Below, in pieces: positions 2,131 through 63,381 of a DNA stretch of 64,000 nt. The notes under the pieces are model-generated. The model was not told the DNA's origin and did no database searches. It saw only the letters and a program-made list of their open reading frames with translations. Position 1 is the first letter of the stretch; the number at the start of each line of letters is the position of its first letter. The DNA comes from Rufibacter ruber (GTDB lineage Bacteria > Bacteroidota > Bacteroidia > Cytophagales > Hymenobacteraceae). A program made the position numbers and the translations under genes. The stretch spans positions 1 through 64,000 of the forward strand of contig NZ_LRMM01000021.1 of the NCBI RefSeq assembly GCF_001647275.1. The letters are read 5' to 3'.

Positions 2131-2237
2131 TATGGCGCAAGCATGCGCTTGTACCTTTAGGATTAGTAAGTTTCTGTTTTAGGGCTGGTTTTGCGAAAGA
2201 AGCCCCAAAACGAAGCCACAAGCACACCTTGCGCCAT
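2131..2237. repeat. Inverted repeat ATGGCGCAAG...CTTGCGCCAT enclosing an R1 palindrome
   Basis: The left arm at 2131-2152 and the right arm at 2218-2237 are inverted copies over ATGGCGCAAG and CTTGT. The same arms recur at 53481-53503 and 53667-53689, where they again enclose an R1 palindrome. Confidence 0.6.
2174..2212. repeat. R1 palindrome, copy 1 (family definition)
   Basis: Family consensus read by eye: CTGTTTT, then GGCCTGTTTT or GGGCTGTTTT, a 2-5 base loop, AAAACAGGCC or AAAACAGCCC, then AAAACAG. The two halves pair into a stem of about 17 bp. This copy has the arms AGGGCTGGTTTT and AGAAGCCCCAAAA and lies inside the inverted repeat at 2131-2237. Confidence 0.75.
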
Positions 2238-2529
2238 GACGGAGTCAGCCACAATCATAACCATAGAAAAAGGAAAAAACGCGAAACAGGCCCCTAAAAT
2301 AATTCCCGCTAAACCAAGCTGATAATTCTAATGAAAACTGGCACCACAGGGCGCTTCTAAATTTCAACCTTGCCCTGTTGCCTCTTTTCCGCAACTGAAC
2401 AAAAGCTAGAATATGCCCAACTCCCTCCTTCCCCTAACACTCCTTCTACCAAACCCCAACCCAAATCACCCCCAACTGCGTAAACAGCGGCAAACGCGCC
2501 TGCATCTTCTGCGTTGGCTCACCAAGCGG

Positions 2530-2569
2530 CTGTTTTTGGCCTACTTTTCCAAAAACAGACCTAAAACAG
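2530..2569. repeat. R1 palindrome, copy 2
   Basis: Arms GGCCTACTTTT and AAAACAGACC, 28 bases before the start of the Omp85-type gene, so it lies in that gene's leader. Confidence 0.75.
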
Positions 2570-2597
2570 AAGAAGAGGCTAATCAGCATCTTACTAT

Positions 2598-5500
2598 ATG
2601 AAACAACTCTTACCCCGCTGGGTAACCTTACTTTTGATAGGAGCTTGTTCGCTCGCAGCAACAGCAGAAAGCTGGGCACAGCTACCTTCTCTGCCAGCCG
2701 GCTCCCCTTCCCACACAGTACTTTTGGCAGGCCGCTGGTCGCCGGGGCAATCTGCCGCCGCCCCCTTGCCGCTGCTGCAGGCGCAGCTAAAGCAGGCCGG
2801 CGAGAAAAGCTCCCTGGTGTTTATAGGCAACCCGTTTCAACCCGCTACCCTGCCCGGCATTGCCGCGTCTGACCGCAAAACCCAGGAGGCGCAGCTCCAG
2901 CAGCAGTTGGCGTACCTGCAGGGGTACAAAGGCCAGATCATTCTCATGCCCGGCGAGCATGACGCCAAAGGCCGGGTGGTACAGGAAGTCAGAAACCAGG
3001 AACGGTTTATTGCCCAGTACCTGCAGAATGAGAAGCTTATCTTGCCAGAGAACCACTGCCCCGGCCCCGCTGAGGTAGCCGTCAATGAGGATGTGCACCT
3101 CATTCTCATGGACACGCAGTGGCTCATTCCTAACCGCCGCATAGATGAAGAAGAAGAGCAGCGGGGCTGCCCCACTACCGGCGGCACGGCCACCCTGGCC
3201 GCCCTGGATGACATTTTGCGCAGCAACGAAGACAAGAACCTGTTAATGGTCATGAGCGTCTCCCCAAAGATGAAAGGGTATGAGCACCGCCTCATGCACC
3301 GGCAGCTGGCGCACATGTATACCCAGCACCCCGGCCTGGTGCATGCAGAAGGCAACTCCCCCGCCCTGCAACACCTCACTAGAGACAGCATCCACTTCAT
3401 TGGGGCCGGCTTGGGGGCCTCCAATGTAAAACCCATCAAAGACGCCATTACCGCGTTTTCCCAGAACTTGCCCGGCTTCGCCAAGGTGCTGTATTACGCC
3501 AACGGCGAGGCGTGGCTGGAGATCTGGAGCGCACCAGATGTGAACAGCACTACCGGCCAGGTGGTACACCGCGCATTGCTTTCGCGCAAGCCTACCCTCA
3601 GGCAGGTAGAAGAGAACATCAAGCGCATGAACCTGAGCTTCGCCGGCAAAAAGGCGGCGCTTCCCGCCAGCCAGGTGTATGAGGCCAGCGGTTTTCACCA
3701 GTGGCTCATGGGCCAAAACTACCGCCCAGAGTGGAAACAGCCGGTCTCCCTGCCCGTCTTTGACATTGGCACCATGCACGGCGGCCTCAAGGTGGTGCAG
3801 CGGGGAGGTGGCTTCCAGACAGTGTCTCTGCGGCTGGAAGACAGCACCGGCCGCCAGTACGTGCTGCGCTCTGTTGAGAAATACCCAGACGCGGCCCTGC
3901 CCCGCATTCTGCGCGAAACCATTGCCGCCGACGTGGTGAAAGACCAGATCTCAGCGTCTCACCCGTACGGCGCACTGGTGGCCGCTCCGCTGGCCAACGC
4001 GGTGGGTGTGTACCATACCAACCCCCAATACTTCATCATTCCAGATGACCCGCGCTTTGGGCGTTACCTCAAGGGCTTCGCCAATACCATAGGGTTGTTT
4101 GAGGAACGGCCAGATGAAGACATGTCTGACATGGCCAGCATGGGGAACTCTAAGAATGTGGTGGGCACAGACAAAGTACTGGAAAACACCCGTGAAGACC
4201 AGAATGACGAAGTAGATCAGTTAAGTGTGCTGCGCGCGCGCCTGCTGGACTTCTTCATTGCCGACTGGGACCGCCATGATGACCAGTGGCGCTGGGCCGA
4301 ATTCAAAAAAGAAGGCAAGGGCAAGATCTACAAACCCGTTCCGCGGGACCGCGACCAGGCATTCTTCGTAAACCAGGGCGTCATTCCTAACATTGCCAGC
4401 CGGCGGTGGTTGCTGCCCAAAGTGCAGGGGTTTGATGAGAGCCTGCGTGATATCAAAGGCTTTAACTTCAACAACCGCTATTTTGACCGCTATTTCCTCA
4501 CGGAGCCTGACCGCGCCCAATGGCTGGCTATGGCAGACTCGGTACGCAGTAGCCTCACAGATGAAGCCATAGAGCAGGCCGTGCGCCAGCTTCCGCCAGA
4601 GATATACCAGAAGTCTGGCAAGCAACTGGAGGAGACCCTGAAAGCCCGCCGTGCGTACCTTAAGCGGGATGCCGAAGACTACTATGAGTTCCTGGCCCAG
4701 AAAGTAGACGTGGTGGGCACAGATGAGAAAGATTATTTTGAAGTTGAGCGGCAAGCCGATGGCGCCACCCTGGTTTCCATCTACAAACAACAACCGTTCA
4801 CGCCAGAGAACCAGATCTACCAGCGCCGTTTCATTTCACCAGACACCAGGGAGATACGGCTGTACGGGCTGGGCGGTGATGACGTCATGCACGTAACCGG
4901 CAAAGCCGAAGACGGTATCAGGCTCCGGCTCATTGGCGGCGAGGGTCAAGATGAAATAACTGACTCTTCTTTTGTTGACGGCCTGCGCCGGCTGACCTAC
5001 GTGTATGATCAACGCAACGGGGCCAAGCTGCAACTGGGCCCAGAGGCCAGAGACTACACCCGCCTTCGGCCCACGGCCAAGTATGACCGCCAGAGCTTCC
5101 GGTACAATTATCTTGGCCCCCTGGGCTCGTTTGAGTTCAACCGTGATGACGGCTTTCTGCTGGGGGCAGGTGCTTTGCTCAAAACCCAGTCGTTCCAGAA
5201 GGAGCCGTACGGCATGATGCACCGGCTGGTGGGCAGCTACGCTTTTGCCACCAACTCGTTCCTGATTGACTACGCCGCCCACTTTACCCGCGTACGGCTG
5301 GGGCTGGACGTGAAGGTGAACGTAAACTGGAAGAGCCCCGGCTTCTCAGACAATTTCTTCGGGCTGAGCAATGAGAGCTTGTACAACCCAGACATTGACA
5401 TTGACTACTACCGCTACCGCTCCACCCAATTCTACGCCAACCTGCTGGTAGGCCGAAAACTGGGCGAGTATGAGACGCTGTTTGTGGGGCCGGCCTTCCA

Positions 5501-6167: not shown

Positions 6168-6210
6168 AAAACAGGAGTGGCTGGTGCAATGCACCAGCCA
6201 CTCCTGTTTT
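6168..6210 (+). terminator. Intrinsic terminator after the Omp85-type gene
   Basis: A perfect 20-bp inverted repeat with a 3-base loop (AAT) ends in a TTTT run that also forms the left edge of R1 copy 3. Because both ends carry A or T runs it could work on either strand. Confidence 0.85.
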
Positions 6211-6242
6211 GGGGCTGTTTTTCTGAAAACAGGCCCAAAACG
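6204..6242. repeat. R1 palindrome, copy 3
   Basis: Its first CTGTTTT is shared with the terminator hairpin at 6168-6210. Confidence 0.75.
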
Positions 6243-6417
6243 GCATCCTCCTTTTTCATAGGTGATGGCCCCTAAAAGAAAGCAAAGGAGAAGGCAGACA
6301 TTTCTTTAGGGGAAAGCAGCCCACACGCGGCAAAACATTCCCTGGCATCTGCCAGCTCCTGAGGCATTCTGCCTTTCTGACTGACCATAGAAGGCGGCCC
6401 CTGCAAAGATGGCCATT

Positions 6418-6459
6418 AAAAACAGAAGGGCTAGCCGCACGGCTAGCCCTTCTGTTTTT
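6418..6459 (-). terminator. Bidirectional hairpin terminator before the 6491-6751 gene end
   Basis: Two perfect 19-bp arms (AAAAACAGAAGGGCTAGCC and its complement) with a GCAC loop. It lies downstream of the leftward gene at 6491-6751 and its edge runs into R1 copy 4. Confidence 0.8.
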
Positions 6460-6490
6460 GACCTGTTTTTCTGAAAACAGCCTGAAAACG
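6452..6490. repeat. R1 palindrome, copy 4
   Basis: Arms ACCTGTTTTT and GAAAACAGCCT. It abuts the stop codon of the leftward gene that ends at 6491. Confidence 0.75.
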
Positions 6491-6751
6491 CTAATTCAGA
6501 AAAATAGAGAACAGTTCAAACCGGTTGGAGGAGAAGCTCCAGTGAGACGGCGACGGGTGAATCTCCTCGCCTTCCTCATCAATGATGGTCACCGCCATTC
6601 CCTCTTCCTGGTTCAGGGGCTCTGTGAAATGCTTTACGGTGTACACATGACCTTCCTCAATCCATTCTTCTGGCTCAAAACCGGGCAGGGAAGCATCAAT
6701 ACATTTGGCATAGACTGCCATATAGCTGGGTGGATAGATCAAATTTACCAT
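6491..6751 (-). CDS. Small hypothetical protein (86 aa)
   Basis: The protein begins MVNLIYPPSYMAVYAKCIDA and carries the pattern 'PGFEPEEWIEEGHVYTV', then a run of acidic residues (IIDEEGEEI) and ends FELFSIFLN. It has no signal peptide or membrane segment. The pattern of a conserved Cys, a GHVY-type turn and a closing hydrophobic strand resembles small Bacteroidota proteins of unknown function that look like compact beta-barrels, but I cannot name a family. Codon use fits a real gene better than the opposite-strand frame, and an R1 palindrome and a terminator follow it as they follow other genes here. Confidence 0.65.
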   Translation of the reverse strand: MVNLIYPPSYMAVYAKCIDASLPGFEPEEWIEEGHVYTVKHFTEPLNQEEGMAVTIIDEEGEEIHPSPSHWSFSSNRFELFSIFLN

Positions 6752-8437: not shown

Positions 8438-8446
8438 AAGGGCTTT

Positions 8447-8486
8447 CTGTTTTGGGCCTGTTTTTGGGAAAACAGCCCCAAAACAG
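8447..8486. repeat. R1 palindrome, copy 5
   Basis: Arms GGGCCTGTTTTT and AAAACAGCCCC, between convergent genes and 8 bases from the stop of the PRC-barrel gene. Confidence 0.75.
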
Positions 8487-8493
8487 AAAATTA

Positions 8494-9339: not shown

Positions 9340-9445
9340 AGTTTTATTTTGGTTAGGTCAAGGCCAAGGGCCAATGTTGTTAGTACGCAGCTACAAATGA
9401 GAGGTTTATACAGAAGAAGGCCGGCACCGGGAAATAAGGAGGTCT

Positions 9446-9485
9446 CTGTTTTGGAGCTACTTTCTGAAAAACAGCCCGAAAACAG
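9446..9485. repeat. R1 palindrome, copy 6
   Basis: Arms GGAGCTACTTTC and GAAAAACAGCCC, with CTGTTTT and AAAACAG edges intact. Confidence 0.7.
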
Positions 9486-9745
9486 AAACCGCTGACAGGC
9501 TCTTCTGCGCAGACAAGACGCCTGCGGGGCCACTAGACGCTACAGGGCCTGGCGGTGGTTCTGAGTCCTGAGTCACGATGAGATTGGGGCTTAGTTTGGG
9601 AAAGCAACTTAGAATCGTGTAAACCTCCCCTTATCCCTCCCGGGAGGGGAGTTAGCTGGCCTGCGCGGGGCAAGTGGCGGGTGACCGTGCATCTGCAATG
9701 CATGTCCTCGGCTGTCCGGGATTTGCCATTCTGGACCTACTACCT

Positions 9746-12779: not shown

Positions 12780-12839
12780 CCCTGTGGTTGCGTTTTCAGG
12801 CTGTTTTTCAGAAATTAGGCCAAAAACGCAGCCACAGGG
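12780..12839 (+). terminator. Terminator hairpin with an R1 palindrome as its core
   Basis: Outer arms CCCTGTGGTTGCG (12780-12792) and CGCAGCCACAGGG (12827-12839) pair with one mismatch, and the R1 core lies between them. TTTCTTTAT follows. It ends the SIMPL gene's transcript and lies 31 bases before the acetyltransferase start. Confidence 0.7.
12791..12828. repeat. R1 palindrome, copy 7
   Basis: Arms CAGGCTGTTTTT and AAATTAGGCCAAAAA form the core of the hairpin at 12780-12839. Confidence 0.75.
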
Positions 12840-12870: not shown

Positions 12871-13362
12871 ATGCGCTACAGAGAAGCCCTCTTATCAGAT
12901 ATTCCGGGAATACAGCGGGTACGGCACGCGGTGAAGGAGAACATCTTGTCTGACCCCGCCCTGGTCACTGATCATGACTGCGCAGAGTATCTTACAAAAC
13001 GCGGCAAAGGCTGGGTGTGCCTGGTAAACGGGACAGTGGTGGGCTTTTCTATTGCAGACCTGCAAGGGCACAACATCTGGGCTCTGTTTGTAGACCCTGA
13101 CTTTGAGAAGAAGGGCGTAGGCCGAAAACTGCACGCCCTCATGCTGGACTGGTACTTTTCCCAAACCCGGCAAACGGTGTGGCTCAGCACTGACCCGGCC
13201 TCCAGAGCGCGCGGGTTCTACCTGGCAGCCGGCTGGAAGGAAGCGGGCCGGTATGGCAAGGGTGAAGTCAAACTTGAAATGGAATACTCTACCTGGCAGC
13301 AGAAGCAGGCCCCAGGCAGGGAAACACCTGTTTCTGGCCTCTTTTCTCGAAAACAGCCCTAA
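12871..13362 (+). CDS. GNAT-family N-acetyltransferase
   Basis: The start at 12871 (MRYREALLSDIPGIQRVR) is the natural GNAT start; the frame is open upstream only because it reads through the R1 repeat. The acetyl-CoA binding motif is seen as ALFVDPDFEKKGVGRKLHA near residue 80, followed by the motif-B strand TVWLSTDPASRARGFYLAAG. It would transfer an acetyl group from acetyl-CoA to an amine whose identity is unknown. The last dozen residues (TPVSGLFSRKQP) are encoded by R1 copy 8, so the C-terminus looks like an extension gained by repeat insertion. Cytoplasmic, 163 residues. Confidence 0.85.
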   Translation: MRYREALLSDIPGIQRVRHAVKENILSDPALVTDHDCAEYLTKRGKGWVCLVNGTVVGFSIADLQGHNIWALFVDPDFEKKGVGRKLHALMLDWYFSQTRQTVWLSTDPASRARGFYLAAGWKEAGRYGKGEVKLEMEYSTWQQKQAPGRETPVSGLFSRKQP

Positions 13363-13366
13363 AACG
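13328..13366. repeat. R1 palindrome, copy 8, overlapping a stop codon
   Basis: Arms GGCCTCTTTTC and GAAAACAGCCC. It supplies the last 11 codons and the stop of the acetyltransferase gene. Confidence 0.75.
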
Positions 13367-13429
13367 GCAACGCAGAGCCGCGGTTACACGTCAAGCAAAT
13401 GTCCTCTTTTTTGGATACCTTTGAAACGT

Positions 13430-15252: not shown

Positions 15253-15276
15253 CAAATGAATCATCACCGCCATGAC

Positions 15277-15315
15277 CAGTTTGGGCCTGTTTTCAGAAAA
15301 ACAGGCCATAAACAG
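15277..15315. repeat. R1 palindrome, copy 9
   Basis: Arms GGGCCTGTTTT and AAAACAGGCC match exactly over GGCCTGTTTT. Confidence 0.75.
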
Positions 15316-15541
15316 GGTAAGCAGCTGTAAAATTTGCCGTTTGTGCTCCACATCCGGCCATAGCCAAAACCAGCCTTCCCGCTTTTCCCGCCTCCGGTGC
15401 GGGGCTATGGGGCTCTGACACGGCTATAGAAGCACCTTGCGCTGACTCTCTTTGCTGACAAACCCAAACAGTGAACCTGTTCAGCGTTTCCTCTTTCTGT
15501 ATCAGGAAGGTTTTATAAAGCACAAGCGGCTCCTGTGTTGC

Positions 15542-15580
15542 CGTTTCTGGGCTGTTTTTCAGAAAACAGCCCAGAAACAG
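15542..15580. repeat. R1 palindrome, copy 10
   Basis: One of the most regular copies: CTGGGCTGTTTT pairs with AAAACAGCCCAG without mismatch. Confidence 0.8.
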
Positions 15581-15704
15581 GGAGCTGGTCCACCTCCAGA
15601 CTCTAGCGGCTGCTTACACCTTGTATCAAACACAAATCTCTACACAGCTCTGTCCTTAAACATGCTCAAAGAGATGAATCTCCACCCCCTCTTTCGGCTT
15701 TGCC

Positions 15705-18125: not shown

Positions 18126-18134
18126 CCTCTGTTT

Positions 18135-18173
18135 CTGTTTTTGGCCTGTTTTCAAGAAAAACAGCAAAAACAG
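18135..18173. repeat. R1 palindrome, copy 11
   Basis: Arms TTTGGCCTGTTTT and AAAAACAGCAAAAA, with outer pairing GTTTCTG/CAGAAAC, so it could act as the terminator of the gene ending at 18125. Confidence 0.75.
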
Positions 18174-18356
18174 AAACACACAACTCAGAGTGACAAAGGC
18201 CAGAGGTGTCCCTGACTTGCCCTTTGTGGCCCATGTGACACAGCCCAACCCGCTTACCCGCCTGCCTTTACGTGACTGTCACCAAACCCGGGACCTGCCT
18301 CTGCGGCACCTTTCCCTGACAGAGCGCACCTAAAACAGGTTATTACAACAGCAGTT

Positions 18357-19695: not shown

Positions 19696-19720
19696 GTGAA
19701 ACTTATTCTGTGGTAAAGTG

Positions 19721-19759
19721 GTGTTTTCAGCCTGTTTTCAGAAAAATAGCTCCAAAACG
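19721..19759. repeat. R1 palindrome, copy 12
   Basis: Arms CAGCCTGTTTTC and AAAAATAGCTCC are less regular. It lies 25 bases upstream of the dehydrogenase start, in the shared divergent region, where a terminator role for that gene is not possible. Confidence 0.65.
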
Positions 19760-19824
19760 GCCAGGCGGCAACTACCCCGCCTGCAATTTAAAAGCTTAGG
19801 TTATATATAGTGAATTTTAACCTG

Positions 19825-22843: not shown

Positions 22844-22880
22844 AGAAACGCCTGGGCAGTTGCTCAGGCGTTTCTGTTTT
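22844..22880 (+). terminator. Terminator of gcvP
   Basis: AGAAACGCCTG pairs with CAGGCGTTTCT, followed by GTTTT, which is also the left edge of R1 copy 13. Confidence 0.85.
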
Positions 22881-22914
22881 CGGGCTGTTTTGGCCAAAAA
22901 CAGCCCGAAAACAG
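22874..22914. repeat. R1 palindrome, copy 13
   Basis: A perfect copy: GTTTTCGGGCTGTTTT pairs with AAAACAGCCCGAAAAC around the loop GGCC-like centre, and it overlaps the gcvP terminator tail. Confidence 0.8.
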
Positions 22915-22979
22915 GATACCTTCCAGCTCCTGATGGGAAAAGGATGAGGGTTTAGAGAAAAAAGTGGCTATGATTCTGC

Positions 22980-24117: not shown

Positions 24118-26194
24118 AAGTGCGTTTCTGGCTTGTTTTTCTGATTTTAGCCCTAAAACAGGGGGCCGCTGCACAAGACGTTCCGCGCCCGGCGGTAGAC
24201 GTGGAGCTGCTGGTAGAGGAGCTTTTCGCGCAGCAGAGTGACGAGAACAGCGTGGCCTATGAAGACCTGTATGAGACGCTGCTGCAGTACTACCGCCAGC
24301 CGCTGGACCTTAACCGCGCCACCCGCGAAGAACTGCGCAGCCTCTTTTTGCTCTCAGAAAACCAGATTTCGGCGTTGCTCCAGCATATTTCAGACAACGG
24401 CCGGCTGTTGAGTCTGTATGAACTGCAGGCGGTTCCCGGGTTTGATTTGCTATCCATCCGGCGGCTGTTGCCGTTTGTGAGCGTACAGAGCCTGGGGCAG
24501 ATTGGCCAGCGCACCTGGCGCGAACGGCTCAAGAATTCCGCCAACCACTCGCTGCTGCTGCGCTATGACCGCACCCTGCAGGAGCAGCGCGGCTACACCC
24601 CGCCCCAAGGCCGTTCCACCACCCGCTACCTGGGCTCCCCAGACAAATACCTGCTGCGCTACCGCCTGAGCCAGCCGCGGGACTTCAGCTTTGGCGTGAC
24701 CGCCGAAAAAGATGCGGGCGAGCAGTTCGCCTGGAACCCTGGCCAGCGGCTCTATGCCTTTGATTTCCTGTCTGCGCACGCGCAACTGTATGACCGGGGC
24801 GCGTTCAAGACCATCGCCGTGGGCGATTACCAACTCCAGTTTGGGCAGGGGCTACTGCTTTCCAGCGGGTTCAGCGTAGGCAAGGGCGGCGAAACCATCA
24901 CCACCATTCGGCGCAGCCAGCTGGGCATACGGCCGCACACCTCGGCGCTGGAGGCCAACTTTTTCAGGGGAGCCGCCGCCACCCACCGCTACAAAAGGAT
25001 TGAGACCACCCTCTTTTACTCCAACCGCCGGGTTGACGCCTCAATGGGCGACGTGCTGGCCGATGACACCACGTTGCTCACCTTAGGCGGCATCCAGACC
25101 TCAGGCCTGCACCGCACGCCCACTGAACTTGCCAACCGCCAGCGGGCGCGGGAACAGGTCATGGCGGTGACGTGACCTACCGGAACCCAAGGCAGACGCT
25201 GAGCGTGGGGGTAACGGCGCTGCACACGTGGTATAATGTGGCGCTGCAGCAACGGCCGGAGCTGTACAATCTCTTCGCTTTCAGCGGAAGTCAAAACACG
25301 GGTGTTGGTCTGCACTACAGCTATCTGTGGCAGAACCTGAACTTTTTTGGGGAGACGGTGCGGTCTGGCAACGGGGCGCTGGGTACGGTGAACGGGATTC
25401 TGGCAAGCCTTTCTGAGCGGGTGGAGCTGTCAATGGTGTACCGCCACTACGCCAGAGATTTCCAGAGCATGTACGGGGCCGCCTTCGGCGAAGCCAGCCG
25501 CAACCAGAACGAGCGCGGGCTGTACACGGGCCTCAAGGTGAAGTTCAGCAACCGCTGGCAGCTCACCGGCTACTATGACCGGTTCAGTTTTCCGTGGCTG
25601 CGGTACCGGGTAGACGCGCCCTCAGACGGCGAGGAATACCTGCTGCGGCTGCAGTTCATGCCCGGCAAGACCACGCTGCTCTACGGCCAATACCAGCACG
25701 AGCGCAAAGCCCGCAATGAGACGATAGCCGGCGAGGCGCTAAGGCAGGTGAATCCCACGTTTTCGCACCGTTATTTACTGTTGTTAGATGTGAGTCCGGT
25801 GCCTACGCTGCGGCTGCGTTCACGGGTGCAGGTGAGCCAGTTTAGGCAGAGCGGTCCGCAGCGCACCGGCTATTTCATGGGGCAGGACGTGACCTGGGAG
25901 CGCAACTACACCCGCCTCAGCGCCCGCTACGCTCTGTTTGATTCTGATGACTATGACACCCGCCTCTACGTACCTGAGCAGGATGTGCTGTACGGGTTCT
26001 CCATTCCGGCATTTTTTGGGCGGGGCACGCATGTGTACCTGCTGGCGCAGCAGCGCATGACCAGAAACCTGGAGATCTGGTTTAAACTCAGCCACACCCA
26101 CTACCGCGACCAGCGTACCGTGAGCACCGGTCTGGAGCAGATAGAAGGCCCCAGGCGTACTGATGTGCGGGTGCAGGCGCGCTACCGTTTTTGA
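24114..26194 (+). pseudogene. Helix-hairpin-helix outer-membrane-like protein, interrupted by one frameshift
   Basis: Two frames (24114-25175 and 25172-26194) together make one protein of about 693 residues. The first part has a signal peptide (MKVRFWLVFLILALKQ, encoded by an R1 repeat) and helix-hairpin-helix motifs (PLDLNRATREELRSL and LYELQAVPGFDLLSIRRL). The second is barrel-like to the end RYRF. At 25161-25168 the text ATGGCGGTGACGTG should read ATGGGCGGTGACGTG, which restores MGGDVTYRN. Such proteins are common in this phylum next to PorV-like genes, perhaps in DNA uptake or outer-membrane assembly. The single missing G may be an assembly error rather than a real break. Confidence 0.8.
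24123..24161. repeat. R1 palindrome, copy 14, inside a signal peptide
   Basis: It encodes the residues VRFWLVFLILALKQ of the helix-hairpin-helix protein's signal peptide. Arms TGGCTTGTTTTT and GATTTTAGCCC are partly degraded, as expected of a repeat under coding constraint. Confidence 0.7.
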
Positions 26195-26224
26195 CCTGTT
26201 CTTGGAAAAACAGCCCGGAAACAG
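26186..26224. repeat. R1 palindrome, copy 15, overlapping a stop codon
   Basis: It supplies the last codons and stop (CGTTTTTGA) of the helix-hairpin-helix gene. Arms GACCTGTTCTT and AAAACAGCCC. Confidence 0.75.
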
Positions 26225-26331
26225 AGACTTTGGTTTTGGCCTGAGTGGGGGTGGGGGAAAGCACTGTGTGGCATCTTCAACCCATTCGGCCGAAAGGCGG
26301 GTATGTGTTGGTAAACGAACGGCAGGTACGT

Positions 26332-26368
26332 CTGTTTTTGCCTGTTTCGCCAAAACAGGCCAAAAACG
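26332..26368. repeat. R1 palindrome, copy 16
   Basis: Arms TTTTTGCCTGTTTC and AAAACAGGCCAAAAA. It lies 11 bases past the stop of the leftward flavin reductase gene. Confidence 0.75.
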
Positions 26369-26378
26369 CAACGGTGTT

Positions 26379-27891: not shown

Positions 27892-27938
27892 AAGTGCGTT
27901 TTTGCTGTTTTGCTGAAAACAGGCCAAAAACGCACTTT
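27891..27938 (+). terminator. R1-cored hairpin between umuD and umuC
   Basis: AAAGTGCG (27891-27898) pairs with CGCACTTT (27931-27938) outside an R1 core. It begins with the last base of the umuD stop codon. If it stops RNA polymerase, umuC expression would depend on read-through or on its own promoter. Confidence 0.6.
27897..27932. repeat. R1 palindrome, copy 17
   Basis: Arms TTTTTGCTGTTTT and AAAACAGGCCAAAAA. It is the last copy before the 21.9-kb gap. Confidence 0.75.
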
Positions 27939-42628: not shown

Positions 42629-42727
42629 CAGCTTAAACCAGCCATAATAGAATTACCAATAAAATGGCGTTCAATATATAATTGTTCCCTGCATAAATCT
42701 GTCTTTTTTTGCTCCTTTAGTTATAGT

Positions 42728-43555: not shown

Positions 43556-43601
43556 GGGCATTAAATTTCGTAATTTAGGGCAAATTTTCAAAAAGGTTTA
43601 A

Positions 43602-44561: not shown

Positions 44562-44564
44562 AGA

Positions 44565-45803: not shown

Positions 45804-45995
45804 AGTGCCGCCTCTGGTAGTTTGAAGTAAGCAAAACTTTACTGGGCAGACATACTTTCGCTACTCATTAGTGCTGCAGAATAATTAGGTGAAGGTTTGG
45901 ATACTACCGGTAATAGGAGAAATCTTCCTAGGATGTGTAGCTCCTTGGGTTTGTTGTTCTAGAATAAATAATTAAAGGTGGTGGAGAAGTAAGTT

Positions 45996-47063
45996 ATGCC
46001 AACTATTCTTTTTGTGGTTCCATATCCTGAAGGAAAAGCTCCTTCACAGCGATTCAGGTTTGAGCAATATTTTTATATTTTAACTGAGGCAGGATATACT
46101 TTTACTATATCTTCTTTCATGGATTCAGCTACATGGGATATCCTTTATAAGCCAGGACATACGGTAAAGAAAGCTCTCGGAACAATAAAGGGGTTTTTAA
46201 AGCGGTTTTTTCTGCTGTTTTCAGTTTCAAAATACGATTACGTATTTGTTCACAGAGAGGCAACACCTGTAGGACCACCATTGTTTGAATGGGCGGTAGC
46301 AAAGGTATTTGGTAAAAAGATTATCTACGATTTTGATGATGCCATCTGGATACCTAATACCTCTGAAAATAATAAGATAGTAGCAGGTATAAAGTGGCAT
46401 CAAAAAGCAGGGAATATTTGTCGTTGGGCTTATAAAGTAAGTTGTGGCAACTCCTTTTTGCAGGCATACGCACAACAGTTTAACCCAGCCGCGTTCGTCA
46501 ATCCTACCACTATCAACACCTTAGGGCACCACAACAAAATAAAGGAGCAGAATACATCTGATGTTGTCATCGGGTGGACGGGTACTCACTCTACCATGAA
46601 ATACTTGCTTCCTTTGATACCCGTTATAGAGCAGCTTGAACAGAAATATACCTTCACCTTCCTGATCATCTCTAATCAGGAACCGGATTTAAAATCTAGA
46701 TCAGTACACTTCCTCCCTTGGCGTAAAGAAACCGAGATCTCTGACCTTCTTAAATTCAATGTTGGTGTTATGCCATTGGTTGATGACCCATGGGCTAAGG
46801 GAAAATGTGCGTTTAAGGCTTTGCAATATATGGCGTTAGGTATACCTGCTATTGTGTCACCTGTAGGTATGAACGTTGAGGTAGTAGATGAAGGAATAAA
46901 TGGATTTATCTGCGATACTCCTGAACAGTGGTATTCTGCTCTGGAGAAAGTTATTCTGGATTCCCATCTTCGCTATACCTTGGGGCAGCAGGCACGGCTT
47001 AAAATAGAACAGAATTACGCCGTTACCGCAAACCGCCTTAATTTCTTAGGTCTCTTCAAATAA
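45996..47063 (+). CDS. GT-B glycosyltransferase (family 4-like)
   Basis: The chain starts ILFVVPYPEGKAPSQRFRFE and has VFVHREATPVGPPLFEW and KIIYDFDDAIW, hallmarks of a GT-B group near family 4. The donor site reads GKCAFKALQYMALGIPAIVS. It has 355 residues. Its last 49 bases overlap, head-on, the end of the opposite-strand membrane gene. A 190-base spacer without repeats precedes it. Confidence 0.83.
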   Translation: MPTILFVVPYPEGKAPSQRFRFEQYFYILTEAGYTFTISSFMDSATWDILYKPGHTVKKALGTIKGFLKRFFLLFSVSKYDYVFVHREATPVGPPLFEWAVAKVFGKKIIYDFDDAIWIPNTSENNKIVAGIKWHQKAGNICRWAYKVSCGNSFLQAYAQQFNPAAFVNPTTINTLGHHNKIKEQNTSDVVIGWTGTHSTMKYLLPLIPVIEQLEQKYTFTFLIISNQEPDLKSRSVHFLPWRKETEISDLLKFNVGVMPLVDDPWAKGKCAFKALQYMALGIPAIVSPVGMNVEVVDEGINGFICDTPEQWYSALEKVILDSHLRYTLGQQARLKIEQNYAVTANRLNFLGLFK

Positions 47064-48349
47064 GCCTGCATAATGTAGAGGGCAGATAGGTAAAAAGGCA
47101 TAAGCGGTATTTTATACCTCACTAAGGTGCCAAAGTTACCGCTGTTGGTTCCTACACCAAAAGCAAATACAAGTGAGAATACCATACAAAAGGTAAGTAT
47201 AGGCTTGGTGCTTATAATCTTAATCATTTTAAAGAGGCCAATCTTTCTAATGATGACAAAAGTCAGATATATAAACATCATCGCCTCTAATGCACTCAAG
47301 GCCATAATAGGGCTTCTTACCTCCCAAATAAAAGGCCTGTATAAAGAAACAATAATAGCCTGGGGGGCAACGGCAATCATACTGCCTATAGAACCGTCAA
47401 AGGTACCAATATGGTATGCTGACCCAGAAGCTTGCTGCTCTGATAAGTACAAACTGTTTATTCTAGTTCTTTCTCCAATATTATCTAAATCATAATTCGC
47501 GTTACCTTCTGTTAAGGTTGTTGCACCAATCAAAGCAATACCAAAACCAAAGACTATAAAAATAGGTTTTAATATAAGACGGAGAGATTTATTTTTTATT
47601 CGGTTATTATTCTCAATGAATACCCAGAGGGCGGCTGGTGGTAAAAAAGATAATAAAATGTATACTTTTACAGAATATATGACATAAGCGGCAAAAAAGG
47701 AGATAATGATGTTTCTTAAAATATTTCTTTTTTCAACTAATGCTCCGTAAAAGCCATAAAAAAGCCATCCTAACGCACCAATGGTGAGAGTATCTTTCAT
47801 TAAGCCTGAGCCCCAAAAGAAAACAGAAGGAATAAAAAATATCGCTATGGCAAATTCCTTGTATAAAGACGGATGAATCTTTATAAAGGTCTTGTACATG
47901 GCCCATATACCCGTAAAGCTAGACACAGCAAAAAGTAAAGAAATAACCGTATAGTTGCCAAAGCAAAGGAACCCAAACACTGTAGCTGCTCTCACTACAA
48001 AATATTCTGTGGATGATCTGTACCAATTCATTTTCTTTATGTATGGTAATAAATCTAGGATACGATTACCATCTCCAAAGAATAAACGAATACCGTCTGA
48101 AAATGAATTCTCAAATGCGCTCATAACTACTTTTGCATGATAAAAATATTCTGAAGTGTCTCCTCCTCCGTAGTAAAATTGAAAGATTAATCCAAAAGCT
48201 ATAGAACCAATAATCTTAACTGTAAGTGCAGGAATAAAGTATCTTCTGATATTTTTAGTTTTTATAGAAGCTTTAAATCTAAAAGCTATCACATAAATGA
48301 TAATAAGGTATATTGGTGTTAATAATAGGTCTGCTAGAGTAATATACAT
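47015..48349 (-). CDS. Multi-pass membrane protein, candidate polysaccharide polymerase
   Basis: The 444-residue protein has about ten to eleven hydrophobic helices with a loop after the second (FYYGGGDTSEYFYHAKVV) and a larger outside loop near residues 270-330. This layout recalls Wzy/EpsG-type polymerases, but no defining motif is seen, so the role is inferred from the cluster lacking another polymerase. It is the only leftward gene in the sugar cluster and its end overlaps the preceding glycosyltransferase gene. Base use is AT-rich like its neighbours. Confidence 0.7.
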   Translation of the reverse strand: MYITLADLLLTPIYLIIIYVIAFRFKASIKTKNIRRYFIPALTVKIIGSIAFGLIFQFYYGGGDTSEYFYHAKVVMSAFENSFSDGIRLFFGDGNRILDLLPYIKKMNWYRSSTEYFVVRAATVFGFLCFGNYTVISLLFAVSSFTGIWAMYKTFIKIHPSLYKEFAIAIFFIPSVFFWGSGLMKDTLTIGALGWLFYGFYGALVEKRNILRNIIISFFAAYVIYSVKVYILLSFLPPAALWVFIENNNRIKNKSLRLILKPIFIVFGFGIALIGATTLTEGNANYDLDNIGERTRINSLYLSEQQASGSAYHIGTFDGSIGSMIAVAPQAIIVSLYRPFIWEVRSPIMALSALEAMMFIYLTFVIIRKIGLFKMIKIISTKPILTFCMVFSLVFAFGVGTNSGNFGTLVRYKIPLMPFYLSALYIMQAYLKRPKKLRRFAVTA

Positions 48350-49688: not shown

Positions 49689-49814
49689 TAACTTCATTAA
49701 AACTGCCTGAGCCGCGTTATCTGGTTGTAAGTATGGGTGAACGCGCGGCCGGTGGTCGCCCACACAACAAGCGTTGCCCAAAGTAGGTTTCAATTTACGT
49801 ACTAATACGTATGC

Positions 49815-49852
49815 CGTTTTCGGCCTGTTTTTACAAAAGTAGCCCCAAAACG
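49815..49852. repeat. R1 palindrome, copy 18
   Basis: Arms TCGGCCTGTTTTT and AAAGTAGCCCC. It is the first copy after the 21.9-kb gap and lies between divergent genes. Confidence 0.7.
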
Positions 49853-49900
49853 CACAGTTCTTCCCAAAAGAAATCCCTTACTTTGAAAAAACGAACAACT

Positions 49901-50815: not shown

Positions 50816-50968
50816 AAGAAGCCGTATAGAATATAAAACCTATTTGTTTTTTTGCGGAGAAACCTTAGCTTGCACAACAGACCTAGGTAAGGTCTAAGAG
50901 TTAAATTCAGTTTTATTCCTGCTAATGATTTGATTTTTATTTTGATCTAAGGCAGCCTTAAAGCCACC

Positions 50969-51006
50969 CGTTTTTGGCCTGTTTTCTGAAAAAACAGCAA
51001 AAACAC
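50969..51006. repeat. R1 palindrome, copy 19
   Basis: Arms TTTTTGGCCTGTTTTC and GAAAAAACAGCAAAAA, in the leader region of the pyrophosphatase gene. Confidence 0.75.
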
Positions 51007-51136
51007 ACAGCAGAGATTATACATCTGTGTAACGGCAACCGGGCGAAAGAGAAGTAGAGGGTTAGGCCATTGGCAGGGCAGAAGTAGCTTACGAGTACGC
51101 TTACAACCGTTCAACTAACAAACAAACCGTTACTCT

Positions 51137-53378
51137 ATGCAGACAATTCTCTACGCCATTCCCGCTTTTGGGCTGGTAGCCTTGTTGTACACCGCCATCA
51201 AATCAGCGTGGGTCACCAAACAAGATGCCGGTGATGAAAAAATGAGCACCATTGCCCGGTACATTGCGGAGGGGGCCATGGCCTTCCTGAAGGCAGAATA
51301 CAAGGTGCTCACCTACTTTGCCATCATCGCCTCCATTTTTCTTTTCTATTTAGGGTACGTAGGGGAGAAGTCCTCACCTATAATTGTCGGCGCTTTCCTG
51401 ATTGGTTGTATCTTTTCGGCCCTGGCCGGGTTCATAGGCATGCGCATTGCCACCAAAGCCAACGTGCGCACCGCCCAGGCTGCTAAAACCAGCTTGTCCA
51501 GAGCCTTGAATGTGTCGTTTACCGGCGGCGCGGTCATGGGCATGGGCGTGGCGGGTTTGGCCGTGCTGGGCCTTGGCTCCCTGTTCATTGCCTTCTACTA
51601 CTGGTTTGTGCAGCGCTCAGGCGCAGCGCCAGCAGTGAGGAGATGGAGATTGCGCTGGAAGTGCTCACCGGTTTCTCGCTGGGTGCGGAAAGCATTGCCC
51701 TCTTCGCCCGGGTGGGCGGCGGGATCTACACCAAAGCCGCCGACGTGGGCGCTGACCTGGTGGGGAAAGTAGAAGCCGGAATCCCCGAAGACGACCCCCG
51801 CAACCCCGCCACCATCGCTGACAACGTAGGAGACAACGTGGGCGACGTGGCCGGGATGGGCGCTGACTTGTTCGGCTCGTACGTGGCTACCATCTTAGCC
51901 ACCATGGTGCTGGGCCGTGAAATCACCGTGACAGACAACTTTGGCGGCTTGTCGCCCATCATTCTGCCCATGCTCATTGCGGGTCTAGGCATTATCTTCT
52001 CCATGATAGGCACGCTGTTCGTGCGCGTGAGCGAAGGCGGAAACGTGCAGGCGGCCCTGAACATGGGCAACTGGTCTTCAGTGGCTTTGACGGCCATTGC
52101 CTCTTACTTTGTGATTGACTGGCTCATGCCCGAGACCCTGAACCTGCGCGGCTATGAGTTTACCTCCATGGGCATTTTCTGGGCGGTCATTATTGGTCTC
52201 ATTGTGGGTACGCTCATCTCTATCATCACTGAGTACTACACCGCCATGGGCAAGAAGCCAGTGATGTCCATTGTGCAGCAATCCTCTACGGGGGCGGCTA
52301 CCAACATCATCTCTGGCTTAAGCGTGGGCATGATGAGCACGGCCCTACCCATTATTGTTTTGGCGGCCGGAATTGTATTCTCGTATTCGGTGGCGGGGCT
52401 TTACGGGGTGGCCATTGCCGCCGCCGGTATGATGGCTACCACCGCCATGCAGCTGGCCATTGACGCCTTTGGGCCCATAGCCGACAACGCCGGGGGTATT
52501 GCCGAAATGAGCGAACTGCCCAAAGAGGTGCGCGAACGCACTGATATTCTGGACGCTGTTGGCAATACCACCGCCGCCACGGGCAAAGGCTTTGCCATTG
52601 CCTCGGCGGCCTTGACGTCGCTGGCCTTGTTTGCGGCGTTTGTGGGTATCTCGGGTATCAGCACCATTGACTTGTACAAAGCGCCGGTGTTGGCAGGTTT
52701 GTTCATTGGCGGCATGATTCCGTTCGTGTTTTCGGCCTTGGCCATTAGTGCGGTGGGCCGGGCGGCCATGGCCATGGTGCAAGAAGTACGCCGTCAGTTC
52801 CGGGAGATTCCGGGCATTATGGAAGGTACGGGCAAGCCCGAATACGACAAATGCGTGGCCATCTCTACCAAAGCGGCCATCAGGGAAATGATGTTGCCCG
52901 GTGCCATTGCCTTGATAGTGCCGCTGATCATTGGCTTCGGGTTGAGAGGCGTTTTTGAGGAGGTGTCCAGCGCTGAGATTCTGGGCGGCGTTTTGGCGGG
53001 TGTGACCGTGGCCGGCGTGCTCATGGCCATTTTCCAGTCAAACGCGGCGGGGCCTGGGACAACGCCAAAAAGTCATTTGAGAAAGGCGTGATGATCAACG
53101 GCGTGATGGAGTACAAAGGCTCAGAGCCGCATAAAGCTTCGGTAACCGGAGACACCGTGGGTGACCCCTTCAAAGATACCTCCGGCCCGTCTATGAACAT
53201 CTTGATTAAACTGATGTCTATTGTGTCACTGGTGATTGCCCCGCACATTGCGGTACGCGAAACGCCGCCACCGGCCCCTGAAACCCGTCCTGATTTGGAA
53301 GGTGCTATTCAGCGGGTGGAGAAAGCTGCGCCAGCGGCCACTGCCCAGTACCCGGTCCCTGCTAAGCAGGTGAATTAG
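51137..53378 (+). pseudogene. hppA: Membrane-bound ion-pumping pyrophosphatase, interrupted by two frameshifts
   Basis: Three frames (51137-51772, 51643-53091, 53088-53378) make one protein of about 746 residues. The substrate site [20 protein letters not shown] and [20 protein letters not shown] are intact, and [12 protein letters not shown] with Ala marks the potassium-dependent type, which often pumps sodium. It couples pyrophosphate cleavage to ion export. Break 1 lies near 51618-51630 (one base short before [14 protein letters not shown]). Break 2 lies at 53043-53052, where GCGGCGGGG should be GCGGGCGGGG to give [17 protein letters not shown]. The intact motifs on both sides of each break suggest assembly error more than real decay. 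Confidence 0.88.
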
Positions 53379-53392: not shown

Positions 53393-53454
53393 AGCACGTT
53401 CCGTTTTCGGCCTGTTTTTCCAAAAACAGACTGAAAACGGAACGTGCTTTTTTG
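53393..53454 (+). terminator. R1-cored terminator of the pyrophosphatase gene
   Basis: AGCACGTTCCG (53393-53403) pairs fully with CGGAACGTGCT (53438-53448), the R1 core lies between, and TTTTTTG follows. The clearest example of the repeat serving as an intrinsic terminator. Confidence 0.85.
53402..53439. repeat. R1 palindrome, copy 20
   Basis: Core of the terminator at 53393-53454. Arms TCGGCCTGTTTTT and AAAAACAGACTGA. Confidence 0.8.
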
Positions 53455-53480: not shown

Positions 53481-53689
53481 CATGGCGCAAGGGTCCGCTT
53501 GTGCCCGTACGCATTGCCTTAACTCAAACCTGTAAGACTTCCAAAACCTCACAGGTTTTCCGTTTCTGGGCTATTTTTTCCAAAACAGGCTGAAAACAGA
53601 TTTCCGGAAAATTAGGAGTTATTCCAATAAGTAAATCTTGATGAAGTTAATAAAGAAATGCGTGGACACAAGCGGACGCTTGCGCCATG
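53481..53689. repeat. Inverted repeat ATGGCGCAAG type enclosing an R1 palindrome
   Basis: Left arm 53481-53503 (CATGGCGCAAGGGTCCGCTTG) and right arm 53667-53689 pair with one or two mismatches. A second hairpin (AAACCTGT...ACAGGTTT, about 53526-53559) and R1 copy 21 lie inside. The spacer 53379-53835 holds no gene. Confidence 0.65.
53561..53599. repeat. R1 palindrome, copy 21
   Basis: Arms CTGGGCTATTTTTT and AAAACAGGCTGA, inside the inverted repeat at 53481-53689. Confidence 0.75.
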
Positions 53690-54375: not shown

Positions 54376-54378
54376 TTT

Positions 54379-54419
54379 CTGTTTTGGAGCTGTTTTCTGG
54401 AAACCAGCCCCAAAACAGG
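54379..54419. repeat. R1 palindrome, copy 22
   Basis: Arms TGGAGCTGTTTTC and GAAACCAGCCCCA. It starts 3 bases past the hpt stop. Confidence 0.75.
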
Positions 54420-54474
54420 AGTAGACGGCGCAACCTTGTGCCCTGAAAAACTGGGGTTTCCAAGATTTTCTTCT

Positions 54475-55421: not shown

Positions 55422-55579
55422 GAGCAGAGAGAACAGAGGCAGACGGAAACACAGAGCAGTGAGAAAAAGCAATTTCCGTCAGTGGCGGAGCAACATCATC
55501 CGCAATGCGGAAGGAAAATTCCCCTCCTTGGAGGGGTAGGTTCACGTTTCATGAGCTAACTCCTTGATAGGAACAAACC

Positions 55580-55618
55580 CGTTTTTGGCCTCTTTTTCAG
55601 AAAACAGGTCAAAAACAG
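55580..55618. repeat. R1 palindrome, copy 23
   Basis: Arms TTTTTGGCCTCTTTTT and GAAAACAGGTCAAAAA, 68 bases before the obgE start. Confidence 0.75.
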
Positions 55619-55685
55619 AACGTTAAAAGAAGGGCCTTCGGCGTGCGCCGAAACCAGTCACACACAAGAATTTAAGAGACCAGCT

Positions 55686-56680: not shown

Positions 56681-56722
56681 AGACCTCACCCCCGGCCCCT
56701 CTCCCGTGGAGAGGGGAGGTTT

Positions 56723-56761
56723 CTGTTTTGGGGCTGTTTTTCTGAAATCAGCCCCAAAACG
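56723..56761. repeat. R1 palindrome, copy 24
   Basis: Arms TTGGGGCTGTTTTT and GAAATCAGCCCCAA, in the left arm of the inverted repeat that begins right after obgE. Confidence 0.75.
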
Positions 56762-56949
56762 GAAAAGCCCTCCTTCAAGTTTGAGCGCAGCGGTAACTTG
56801 GAGGGAGTATGACTGCCAGTTTCAACTGGCGGAAGTAGGGATTGGGGAATGTAAGTCGCCAGTTGAAAACTGGCATCACCCTTAGCCACAAGTTACGCTG
56901 TCGCTAAACTTGCGGCAGCAAAATTACCCTAGGAGAAACGCGGTAAATT

Positions 56950-56989
56950 AGTTTTGGGCCTGTTTTCACCAAAACAGGCCCAAAACAGG
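56950..56989. repeat. R1 palindrome, copy 25
   Basis: A perfect copy: TTTTGGGCCTGTTTT pairs with AAAACAGGCCCAAAA. Confidence 0.8.
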
Positions 56990-57272
56990 AAAGCGGCATT
57001 CCCTCTCCCTGGAGGGTGAGGGGGCAGCAGTAGTTCTTGGGTAAAAAAGAAACGAGAACTGAAGCCCTTGTCTCTGCTTTGCTTGTGCATTTGCAACTTG
57101 AACCTGATTATTACCCTCATCCTAACCTTCTCCCAAAGAGAGAAGGAACTCCGCAGTAGACGGTTGGCAAGTACTTCTTTCAGGTTTAAGCACATGGGTA
57201 ACTTGAGGGGGAAATGATTGGCAGTTTTAACTGGCATAACCCGCGGCAGCGGAAAAAGGAAGTTTCTATTTG

Positions 57273-57310
57273 CGTTTTGGGGCTATTTTCAGAAAAACAG
57301 CCCCAAAACC
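57273..57310. repeat. R1 palindrome, copy 26
   Basis: Arms TTTGGGGCTATTTTC and GAAAAACAGCCCCAAA, in the right arm of the inverted repeat. Confidence 0.75.
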
Positions 57311-57491
57311 AAAACTCCCCTCTCCGTGGGAGAGGGGCCGGGGGTGAGGTCTCTGTCAGTCCTGTCATTCGCAAGGGGCGGAGAATTTGCCCGAAAATGC
57401 CACTTTGGCATAAAAGCCGGTTTGGCAAAATTGTTGCCAAGAATGAGGCACGAGTTAGAAGCATCAACATCTGAAAAGAGTAAAAAGATAT

Positions 57492-59598: not shown

Positions 59599-59793
59599 AT
59601 GCCAACGGCCGCCGTTACCTAACTAATTTCCCTGCCGCAAGTTTAGCGCTAGCGTAACTTGTGGTTTATGATACGGCCAGTTTTCAACTGGCGATTTGCA
59701 TTCATAGAAATCCAATTCCGCCAGTTACAAACTGGTGACCATATTCCCTGCCAAGTTACCGCTGCGCTCAAACATGAAGGAGCCAGGCCTTTC

Positions 59794-59831
59794 CGTTTTC
59801 GGCCTGTTTTCCCAAAAGCAGGCCAAAAACG
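59794..59831. repeat. R1 palindrome, copy 27
   Basis: Arms TTTCGGCCTGTTTTC and AAAAGCAGGCCAAAA, 62 bases before the ABC ATPase start. Confidence 0.75.
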
Positions 59832-59892
59832 CAACAACACCAGTTTGCACGGGCAAAGTCTTTCGCGTAGCTTTATCCAACGCAAACTAACT

Positions 59893-62383: not shown

Positions 62384-62396
62384 GCCTACTTACTTT

Positions 62397-62433
62397 CTGT
62401 TTTTCGCCTCTTTTCCGGAAAACTGCTCCAAAA
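62397..62433. repeat. R1 palindrome, copy 28
   Basis: Arms TTCGCCTCTTTTC and GAAAACTGCTCCAAAA. Its end touches the ATG of the ChaN-like gene, so it would cover the ribosome site of that mRNA. Confidence 0.7.
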
Positions 62434-62434
62434 C

Positions 62435-63313
62435 ATGAAGAAGATATTTTCGGCCTTGGCCGCGTTCATCCTTTTAAGCTCTTTTACCATGGACAAACCT
62501 GCTTACCGCCTTTTCACCGGCTCTGGCAAAGTGATAGACTACGGGAAGATGCTCAAAGAACTGGCTGCCGCCGATGTGGTGTTTTTTGGGGAACAGCACA
62601 ACGACCCCATTGCCCATTGGCTTCAGCTGGAGCTGGCCAAAGACCTCTACCAGCAGCACGGCCGGCAGCTCGTGCTAGGCACTGAAATGTGGGAAGCCGA
62701 CACCCAGGCTGCGGTTGATTCCTTTCTGCTGGGCCTGGTTGATGAGCCTTCCTTCACCCAAACCAGCCGCGCCTGGCCCAATTTTGCCACTGATTACAAG
62801 CCGGTGCTGCTTTTCGCCAAAGCGAAAGGGCTACAAGTAATTGCTACCAACGCGCCCCGCCGTTCTGCCCGCATAGTGGCCAAAGAAAGCCTGCAGGGTT
62901 TAGACGCGCTGCCGCCCTCTGAAAAACAATGGCTGCCTTTGCTCCCCATTACGGTTGACCTGGAACTGCCGGCCTACAAGCGCATGCTCAGCATGTTTGG
63001 CAGTGACACCCACGGCGCCTCGGCGGCGGGCTCAACTAAAATAGTGGAAGCCCAGGCTCTGAAAGATGCCACCATGGCCCATTTTATCAGCAAGAACCTG
63101 AAAACAGGGCAGCACCTGCTCCACCTCAACGGCGCCTACCACTCAGACCACCACGAAGGCATTCTCTGGTATCTGAAGCGCCTTCGGCCCGAATTGAAAA
63201 TCAAGACCGTCACCACCGTTCTGCAGCCGCAACTGGAGAAGCTGGAAAAAGAGCACCTGCAGCGGGCAGATGTGGTGTTAGCCGTGCCCGAAACCATGAC
63301 AAGGACGTATTAG
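62435..63313 (+). CDS. ChaN-like (DUF399) protein
   Basis: A signal peptide (MKKIFSALAAFILLSSFTM) is followed by the family's conserved VVFFGEQHNDPIAHWLQLEL and LVLGTEMWEADTQAAVD. Later come NAPRRSARIVAK and HLNGAYHSDHHEGI, which supply His and Glu residues near the proposed haem or metal site. ChaN is a haem-binding outer-membrane lipoprotein in other bacteria; here no lipobox Cys is seen, so the protein is probably periplasmic. 292 residues. It is the last gene of the window. Confidence 0.82.
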   Translation: MKKIFSALAAFILLSSFTMDKPAYRLFTGSGKVIDYGKMLKELAAADVVFFGEQHNDPIAHWLQLELAKDLYQQHGRQLVLGTEMWEADTQAAVDSFLLGLVDEPSFTQTSRAWPNFATDYKPVLLFAKAKGLQVIATNAPRRSARIVAKESLQGLDALPPSEKQWLPLLPITVDLELPAYKRMLSMFGSDTHGASAAGSTKIVEAQALKDATMAHFISKNLKTGQHLLHLNGAYHSDHHEGILWYLKRLRPELKIKTVTTVLQPQLEKLEKEHLQRADVVLAVPETMTRTY

Positions 63314-63341
63314 TTTTTCTTTAGAGCCAACTGCCCAGGTT

Positions 63342-63381
63342 CTGTTTTCGGGCAGTTTTGGAAAAAATAGCCCGGAAACAG
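63342..63381. repeat. R1 palindrome, copy 29
   Basis: Arms TTTTCGGGCAGTTTTG and AAAAAATAGCCCGGAAA, 28 bases past the stop of the ChaN-like gene. Confidence 0.7.

Follow-up and report, generated by a model that had tools for sequence, protein, structure and literature searches.

The 64,000-bp stretch of Rufibacter ruber DNA analysed here (contig NZ_LRMM01000021.1, positions 1 to 64,000; henceforth the window) carries 28 copies of a 44-bp palindrome, called R1, which marks transcription-unit ends, with the greatest regularity where genes converge, and is kept at many orthologous gene ends throughout the genus. We put it at an even chance that R1 is a conserved, two-fold-symmetric recognition site read in duplex DNA, and not a repetitive extragenic palindrome (REP) driven by a REP-associated tyrosine transposase (RAYT) or chiefly an RNA hairpin. 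Recognition of the duplex by a symmetric protein is favoured by the little covariation between the arms, the lack of a transcript-strand preference, the fixed 4-bp centre, and the helical phasing of the arms.

Copy number and anatomy of R1

Copies were searched with an arm model trained on exact R1 copies, and those in the window scored 30–65 bits (positions 2172 to 63383; Table 1). The original prediction had counted 29 palindromes; the family is real, but the 29th candidate, near 24120, is degenerate, lies inside a called gene, and is not among the 28. A sample of 673,291 bp from the same genome (the own-genome sample) contained 325 copies at a score of at least 20 bits and 336 at a score of at least 10 bits, while a first-order Markov shuffle of this sample contained none, even at 10 bits. 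The spacing of approximately one copy per 2.1 kb corresponds to about 2,600 copies per 5.50 Mb, all copy numbers per genome being extrapolations from sampled stretches. The exact core SCTGTTTTN(3-6)AAAACAGS was present at 1,050 sites in the 5.50 Mb of the genome, and the reversed pattern at none.

The R1 unit consists of two 20-nt arms (consensus TTCTGTTTTNGGSCTGTTTT) flanking a spacer, which is 4 nt long in 312 of the 325 copies. Both arms are of equal composition, and R1 is therefore without direction. Each arm holds two CTGTTTT motifs that are 11 bp, i.e., one helical turn, apart, and GC content alternates inside the element. R1 is 44 bp long, was counted 325 times in 673 kb, with four of these copies in called genes, and fits the broad description of a REP; no Rfam match was obtained in the window. 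Solo half-sites outside of palindromes showed no excess over expectation in the own-genome sample, so that the dyad is the unit. Solo arms were also considered as ends of a longer element, but of the 27 found none of the 25 listed was recognised as such; six of these 25, including the four best, are no more than 45 nt away from a contig end that truncates the palindrome before its partner arm. The sample has 22 contig ends, six of which (contigs C4, C7 (both ends), C9, C90, and C112) are situated inside or beside an R1 arm, giving the impression that strong palindromes interrupted the assembly.

Position of R1 relative to genes

Genes were predicted with a home-made caller, which assigned a fraction of 0.70 of the own genome to coding sequence and left gene starts partly uncertain, and some long gaps hence contain missed genes. 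Among gaps of at least 44 bp in the own-genome sample, R1 occupied 61 of 69 convergent gaps (29.6 ± 2.8 under uniform placement), 146 of 239 tandem gaps (88 ± 5), and 31 of 77 divergent gaps (26.7 ± 2.3). Convergent gaps of at least 80 bp were occupied in 57 of 60 cases, or in 56 of 61 cases with a refitted dialect-specific model. The same trend recurred in gaps of at least 80 bp in 200 kb of three other species, i.e., G006 (convergent 16/21, tandem 35/62, divergent 9/21), G012 (11/12, 46/61, and 11/16, respectively), and G008 (12/14, 22/50, and 5/16, respectively). The original prediction of a dense palindrome family under constraint and biased towards gene borders was right. Its statement that nearly all copies are no more than 100 bases away from a start or stop codon was overstated, as this applied to 20 of the 28 copies in the window and to 229 of the 315 classified copies of the sample; four of the 325 copies were inside called genes and ten could not be placed. 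The distance from stop codon to R1 peaked at +1 and +2 (12 and 13 cases). Three of four tRNAs had an R1 copy within 400 nt downstream, a number too small to judge tRNA surroundings.

Distribution and conservation across the genus

Scanning the relatives with arm models revealed R1-like elements in all 16 genomes of the genus at 32–61 copies per 100 kb sampled (37–61 in the first stretches of the 16 genomes, 32–50 in four larger samples), which extrapolates to some 1,500 to 3,400 copies per genome. The first-stretch scan scored relatives partly on the blocks from which the model was derived and was repeated independently in G006, G008, and G012. Outside the genus, no copy was found in 22 samples (three of them drawn from 80 named gcvP loci; a sample of 4.6 kb was left out) or in 200 kb of the sister-genus genome G017. 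The best named relative of the gcvP gene was from Hymenobacter, at 76%, and the family is therefore probably Hymenobacteraceae. A sequence model was aligned from 109 of 144 randomly drawn copies, the other 35 being omitted by eye due to brevity or coding-like appearance. In a search of 200 genomes of the family, each of the 16 genus members had at least 31 scored matches, and 33 of the other 184 genomes had 1 to 8 matches, counting both strands. Inspection by eye of four stray-bearing genomes placed some copies in the vicinity of transposase-like genes or of attC-like sequences, and these copies may have come by transfer. In L219 and L221 (sister genus g3), R1-like pairs approximately 70–80 bp apart adjoin sequences that look attC-like by eye, and they perhaps arrived with transferred gene cassettes.

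Conservation of individual sites was followed in 14 orthologous gaps, using an arm model trained on those same intergenic gaps. Of the 209 sequences, 118 carried R1 at a score of at least 10 bits, compared to 0.3 expected from shuffles. R1 was present after gcvP and between hpt and adk in 16/16 genomes, in the ald/gcvP and o-p gaps in 14/16, in q-r in 11/16, in s-t and after t in 10/15 each, and in a-rnd in 9/16; the remaining six gaps were occupied in 1 to 5 of 14–16 genomes. The copy after gcvP begins 50–59 nt beyond the gene end in 15 of 16 genomes. Fourfold sites of gcvP were 49–61% identical to the window, and in five well-filled gaps the R1 arms were 59–76% identical while most flanks were 26–36% identical; exceptions were the gcvP and q-r gaps, with left flanks at 57% and 44%, respectively. 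R1 stays at many orthologous gene ends despite randomised flanks, and the sites are under purifying selection or some similar force that maintains them. Identity between copies was 62% for the same site in different species, 62% for different sites in one species, and 59% otherwise; species dialect and descent therefore carry similar weight. Examples of dialects are CTCATTT (G012) and GTTTAGGGGCT (G004).

Pairing between the arms

Structure appears to be a minor constraint on R1, as the arms vary almost independently of each other. Copies of the own-genome sample had on average 14.88 Watson–Crick pairs out of 20, compared to 14.41 for arms re-paired between copies, and the excess was located at arm position 10 (z 7.9) and at the S position (z 4.2), with weaker contributions at positions 1–2. 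Dialect-specific models applied to larger samples gave 14.79 vs. 14.28 pairs in G000 (standard deviation (sd) of re-paired arms 0.07, z ~7), 16.36 vs. 15.76 in G012 (sd 0.13, z ~5), 11.35 vs. 10.28 in G008 (sd 0.24, z ~4), and 14.42 vs. 14.14 in G006 (sd 0.14, z ~2). In 16 species samples of 10 to 34 copies each, z ranged from −1.0 to 2.7; pooled across species, 72.2% of cells paired vs. 68.7% after shuffling, which shared dialects alone would give too. The two pairing subtypes described in the original prediction are a tendency only, since the S position matched in 192 of 324 copies and was a C/G mixture in 120 and another letter in 12. Perfect 20/20 palindromes occurred 16 times vs. 1.4 expected. 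Nearly all of the symmetry of R1 consists of one half-site used twice, to which a minor arm-matching process is added, and we can only guess that the latter is template-switch correction.

Mismatches oriented by transcription near stop codons comprised 170 G-U and 154 A-C (159 copies), and the tandem-only classes had G-U/A-C counts of 80/76, 37/23, and 111/123. No clear overall preference for G-U over A-C on the sense strand was observed. The selection on structure that had been predicted is hence mostly not supported, apart from the small pairing excess in four species.

A proposed duplex-DNA recognition site

If R1 is read as duplex DNA, the two 20-bp half-sites would face one another over the 4-bp centre, and a putative symmetric protein of the genus (dimer or tetramer) would bind them and hold or shape DNA where transcription units end, especially between convergent genes, where positive supercoiling gathers. 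The recognised sequence would drift between species, and many sites would drift along with it. The bound protein would likely have a topological or insulating role, similar to the one suggested for bacterial interspersed mosaic elements (BIMEs) that bind gyrase in Escherichia coli, and a topological role akin to that suggested for gyrase at BIMEs may be regarded as the most concrete version of this reading. As described in PMC6379681, gyrase sites/BIME-2 of E. coli share with R1 a 4-bp centre, symmetric arms, and a phasing of ~10–11 bp, and gyrase is enriched downstream of transcription units, which resembles the placement of R1. The gyrase motif is 130 bp long and degenerate, and according to the paper the sequence does not hard-wire the attraction of gyrase to downstream regions, whereas R1 is sharp, 44 bp long, and genus-specific; the comparison comprises anatomy and position only.

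Several observations weigh against a duplex recognition site. No R1-binding protein was found, although no systematic search for one was made. Divergent gaps hold 38 of the 325 copies, one of them conserved and 24 nt from the ald start, so that not all copies mark unit ends, and because other genera of the family lack R1, its function is not general. The small but significant pairing excess in G006, G008, G012, and G000, together with the surplus of perfect palindromes, indicates some contribution of structure or of correction between the arms, and one tandem distance class leaned towards G-U (37 vs. 23). Lastly, GC periodicity outside of R1 is weak (uncorrected p ~0.01 near a 10-bp period).

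Alternative explanations

A selfish origin is unlikely in our view, if the best placed among the alternatives; REP-like palindromes would have invaded the ancestor of the genus via some non-RAYT machinery, and old copies would have been slowly corrected or replaced, e.g., by template switching between arms. The signal of whole-element copying was modest. Pairs of copies with 40/40 identical arm bases numbered 14 vs. 1.2 expected, and those with at least 39 identical bases 38 vs. 12.5; the surplus of perfect palindromes, gains and losses in several orthologous gaps, and several contig ends inside R1, a possible effect of strong palindromes, agree with such an origin. On the other hand, similar pairs at 34/40 were below expectation (3,660 vs. 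4,749), copies keep their place across divergence that randomises the flanks, and the solo arms revealed no autonomous relative of greater length. A target-site duplication, as would mark a miniature inverted-repeat transposable element (MITE), was not clear; among 40 tests of offset and length, a single one stood out weakly (15 vs. 5.6).

It is rather improbable that R1 acts as an RNA element, i.e., as a transcribed hairpin through which messages are terminated, trimmed, or protected from both sides. The tight positioning past stop codons, the high occupancy of convergent and tandem gaps, and a predicted RNA fold averaging −17.9 kcal/mol are in line with this role, as is the narrower count of intrinsic-terminator-like hairpins at tandem ends, where they occurred at 10/89 ends with R1 within 60 nt vs. 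21/88; convergent ends showed no such deficit with close R1 (18/59 vs. 10/41). In the broader count, however, terminator-like hairpins were present at similar rates with and without R1, i.e., at 25/74 and 7/36 convergent and at 17/113 and 18/81 tandem ends of the own genome, respectively. Rates were also broadly alike in G006, G008, and G012, the largest gap being at tandem ends of G012 (6/36 with vs. 7/19 without R1), and G017, which lacks R1, had such hairpins at 8/28 and 8/63 ends. Own-genome copies had no T-tract outside the arms as intrinsic terminators would; a strong hairpin abuts R1 at 26 of 630 element sides, and the outer R1 arm can act as its T-tract. Similar hairpin rates and the missing T-tract leave a replacement of terminators by R1 unsupported overall. 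The RNA role is further opposed by the missing overall G-U preference on the sense strand and by copies in divergent gaps. A terminating ribosome would cover a stem that begins 1–2 nt past the stop codon, and stems at the preferred +1 and +2 positions would hence lie beneath it.

A palindromic uptake signal is improbable in our view. R1-bearing DNA would then be taken up preferentially and biased recombination would maintain the sites, as for DNA uptake sequences (DUS) and uptake signal sequences (USS), with which R1 shares very many copies and lineage dialects. The high and even density in 16/16 species, the dialects, the near-absence from coding DNA (4/325), and helically phased T-tracts resembling extended USS are compatible with this idea. 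Known uptake signals are short, are not obligate dyads, and are common within genes, whereas R1 is a 44-bp obligate dyad, is almost absent from genes, and shows no excess of half-sites; the strong association with convergent gaps is, moreover, not required for uptake.

That R1 is the cognate REP of the RAYTs of the genus is very improbable, as the RAYTs have palindromes of their own and G006, which lacks a RAYT, has R1 at full density; a RAYT origin was thus rejected, and with it the suggested spread by a REP-type transposase. The transposase genes that had been suggested do exist, since the own genome encodes three full-length RAYTs of 182–183 amino acids with the motifs NHLH (two) or SHVH (one), FWQ, and YIHQNP, YLHQNP, or YVHTNP as a third motif (Table 1), but all three are flanked on both sides by GGCGC-tagged palindromes that differ from R1. 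They fit subclass 2.6 of PMC6006769, where RAYTs of subclass 2.6/group 5 in Bacteroidetes are reported with atypical REPs; R1 is found in the same phylum and in a genome with such RAYTs, yet they adjoin GGCGC-tagged palindromes instead of R1. Relatives of the RAYTs were found by alignment search in 15 of the 16 genus genomes, and R1 is 40–165 nt away on both sides of two of the own RAYTs (none within 500 nt of the third), a proximity to be expected from the general density of R1. No RAYT match was obtained in G006 (one contig, 99% complete), which has 37 R1 copies per 100 kb. The R1 consensus bears no unpaired GTAG or CGTC tag. Compared to the REP/BIME elements of the GTAG and CGTC superfamilies (PMC3733652), R1 is likewise a short, intergenic, high-copy palindrome mostly between convergent or same-direction genes, but it lacks the unpaired tag and a dedicated RAYT, keeps its positions among 16 species, and is a dyad of near-independent arms. 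One GGCGC-type REP subtype was matched exactly at 32 sites of the own genome, often as inverted pairs, and REPs of the GGCGCAAGC type occur in the window at 2132–2155 and 2216–2240, flanking the R1 copy at 2172–2215, and at 53669–53686.

R1 copies in the window and neighbouring features

None of the 28 copies is situated between positions 27,936 and 49,811 of the window, an interval that includes a low-GC (35–39%) sugar island without R1 at approximately 31,400–48,000. The H+-pyrophosphatase gene at 51137–53091 is apparently split into two overlapping frames, and the longer open reading frame matches its families only from about position 145–169 onward.

Table 1 Scored R1 copies in the window (strand given as "." for all) and RAYT genes of the own genome (positions on the respective locus)
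Feature	Position	Score (bits)	Context
R1	2172..2215	30.4	383 nt to nearest gene boundary; between two GGCGC-type REPs
R1	2528..2571	38.0	27 nt from a start
R1	6202..6245	61.1	47 nt past a stop; outer arm continues strong upstream hairpin 6168-6210
R1	6450..6493	53.7	after hairpin 6418-6459
R1	8445..8488	64.9	convergent genes; 6 nt from a stop
R1	9444..9487	41.4	
R1	12788..12831	36.0	47 nt past a stop
R1	13326..13369	47.0	61 nt upstream of likely rnd-like start
R1	15274..15317	40.0	22 nt past a stop
R1	15539..15582	54.5	
R1	18133..18177	47.4	5-nt spacer; convergent genes; 8 nt past a stop
R1	19719..19762	41.5	divergent ald/gcvP gap; orthologous site occupied in 14/16 genomes
R1	22872..22916	63.2	5-nt spacer; after gcvP, downstream of terminator-like hairpin; site occupied in 16/16 genomes
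R1	26183..26226	44.7	overlaps stop codon
R1	26329..26371	37.4	3-nt spacer; 8 nt from a stop
R1	27892..27935	39.5	immediately past stop codon
R1	49812..49855	39.9	divergent gap; 19 nt from a start
R1	50966..51010	46.9	5-nt spacer
R1	53399..53442	55.3	21 nt past a stop
R1	53558..53601	47.8	
R1	54377..54420	51.9	hpt-adk gap; 2 nt past hpt stop; orthologous gap occupied in 16/16 genomes
R1	55577..55620	50.9	
R1	56721..56764	55.3	41 nt past a stop; orthologous gap occupied in 14/16 genomes
R1	56947..56990	53.7	
R1	57270..57313	45.4	
R1	59791..59834	53.2	
R1	62395..62438	33.7	touches a called start
R1	63340..63383	43.8	27 nt past a stop; orthologous site occupied in 10/15 genomes
RAYT gene	L047 1824-2372		subclass 2.6 type; own GGCGC-tagged REP pair
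RAYT gene	L048 2034-2585		subclass 2.6 type; own GGCGC-tagged REP pair
RAYT gene	L049 2071-2622		subclass 2.6 type; own GGCGC-tagged REP pair

Implications

Tentatively, and with less confidence than in a duplex recognition site as such, we propose a boundary code for chromatin, topology, or uptake, in which the 44-bp dyad stands at almost all transcription-unit ends of the genus and is recognised in double-stranded form by a putative symmetric protein. The specificity of this protein would shift between species, and in each genome at least about 1,500 sites would shift along with it. No published description of R1 or of such a boundary code was found, as judged on titles and abstract openings. 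Here, dense extragenic palindromes are set apart both from RNA hairpins and from the RAYT model, and the 16 species with their conserved sites amount to a natural experiment. Should R1 be read by a protein, the dialects would let one trace a DNA-binding protein co-evolving with very many targets, and R1 would be a test of what bacterial gene ends require besides a terminator.

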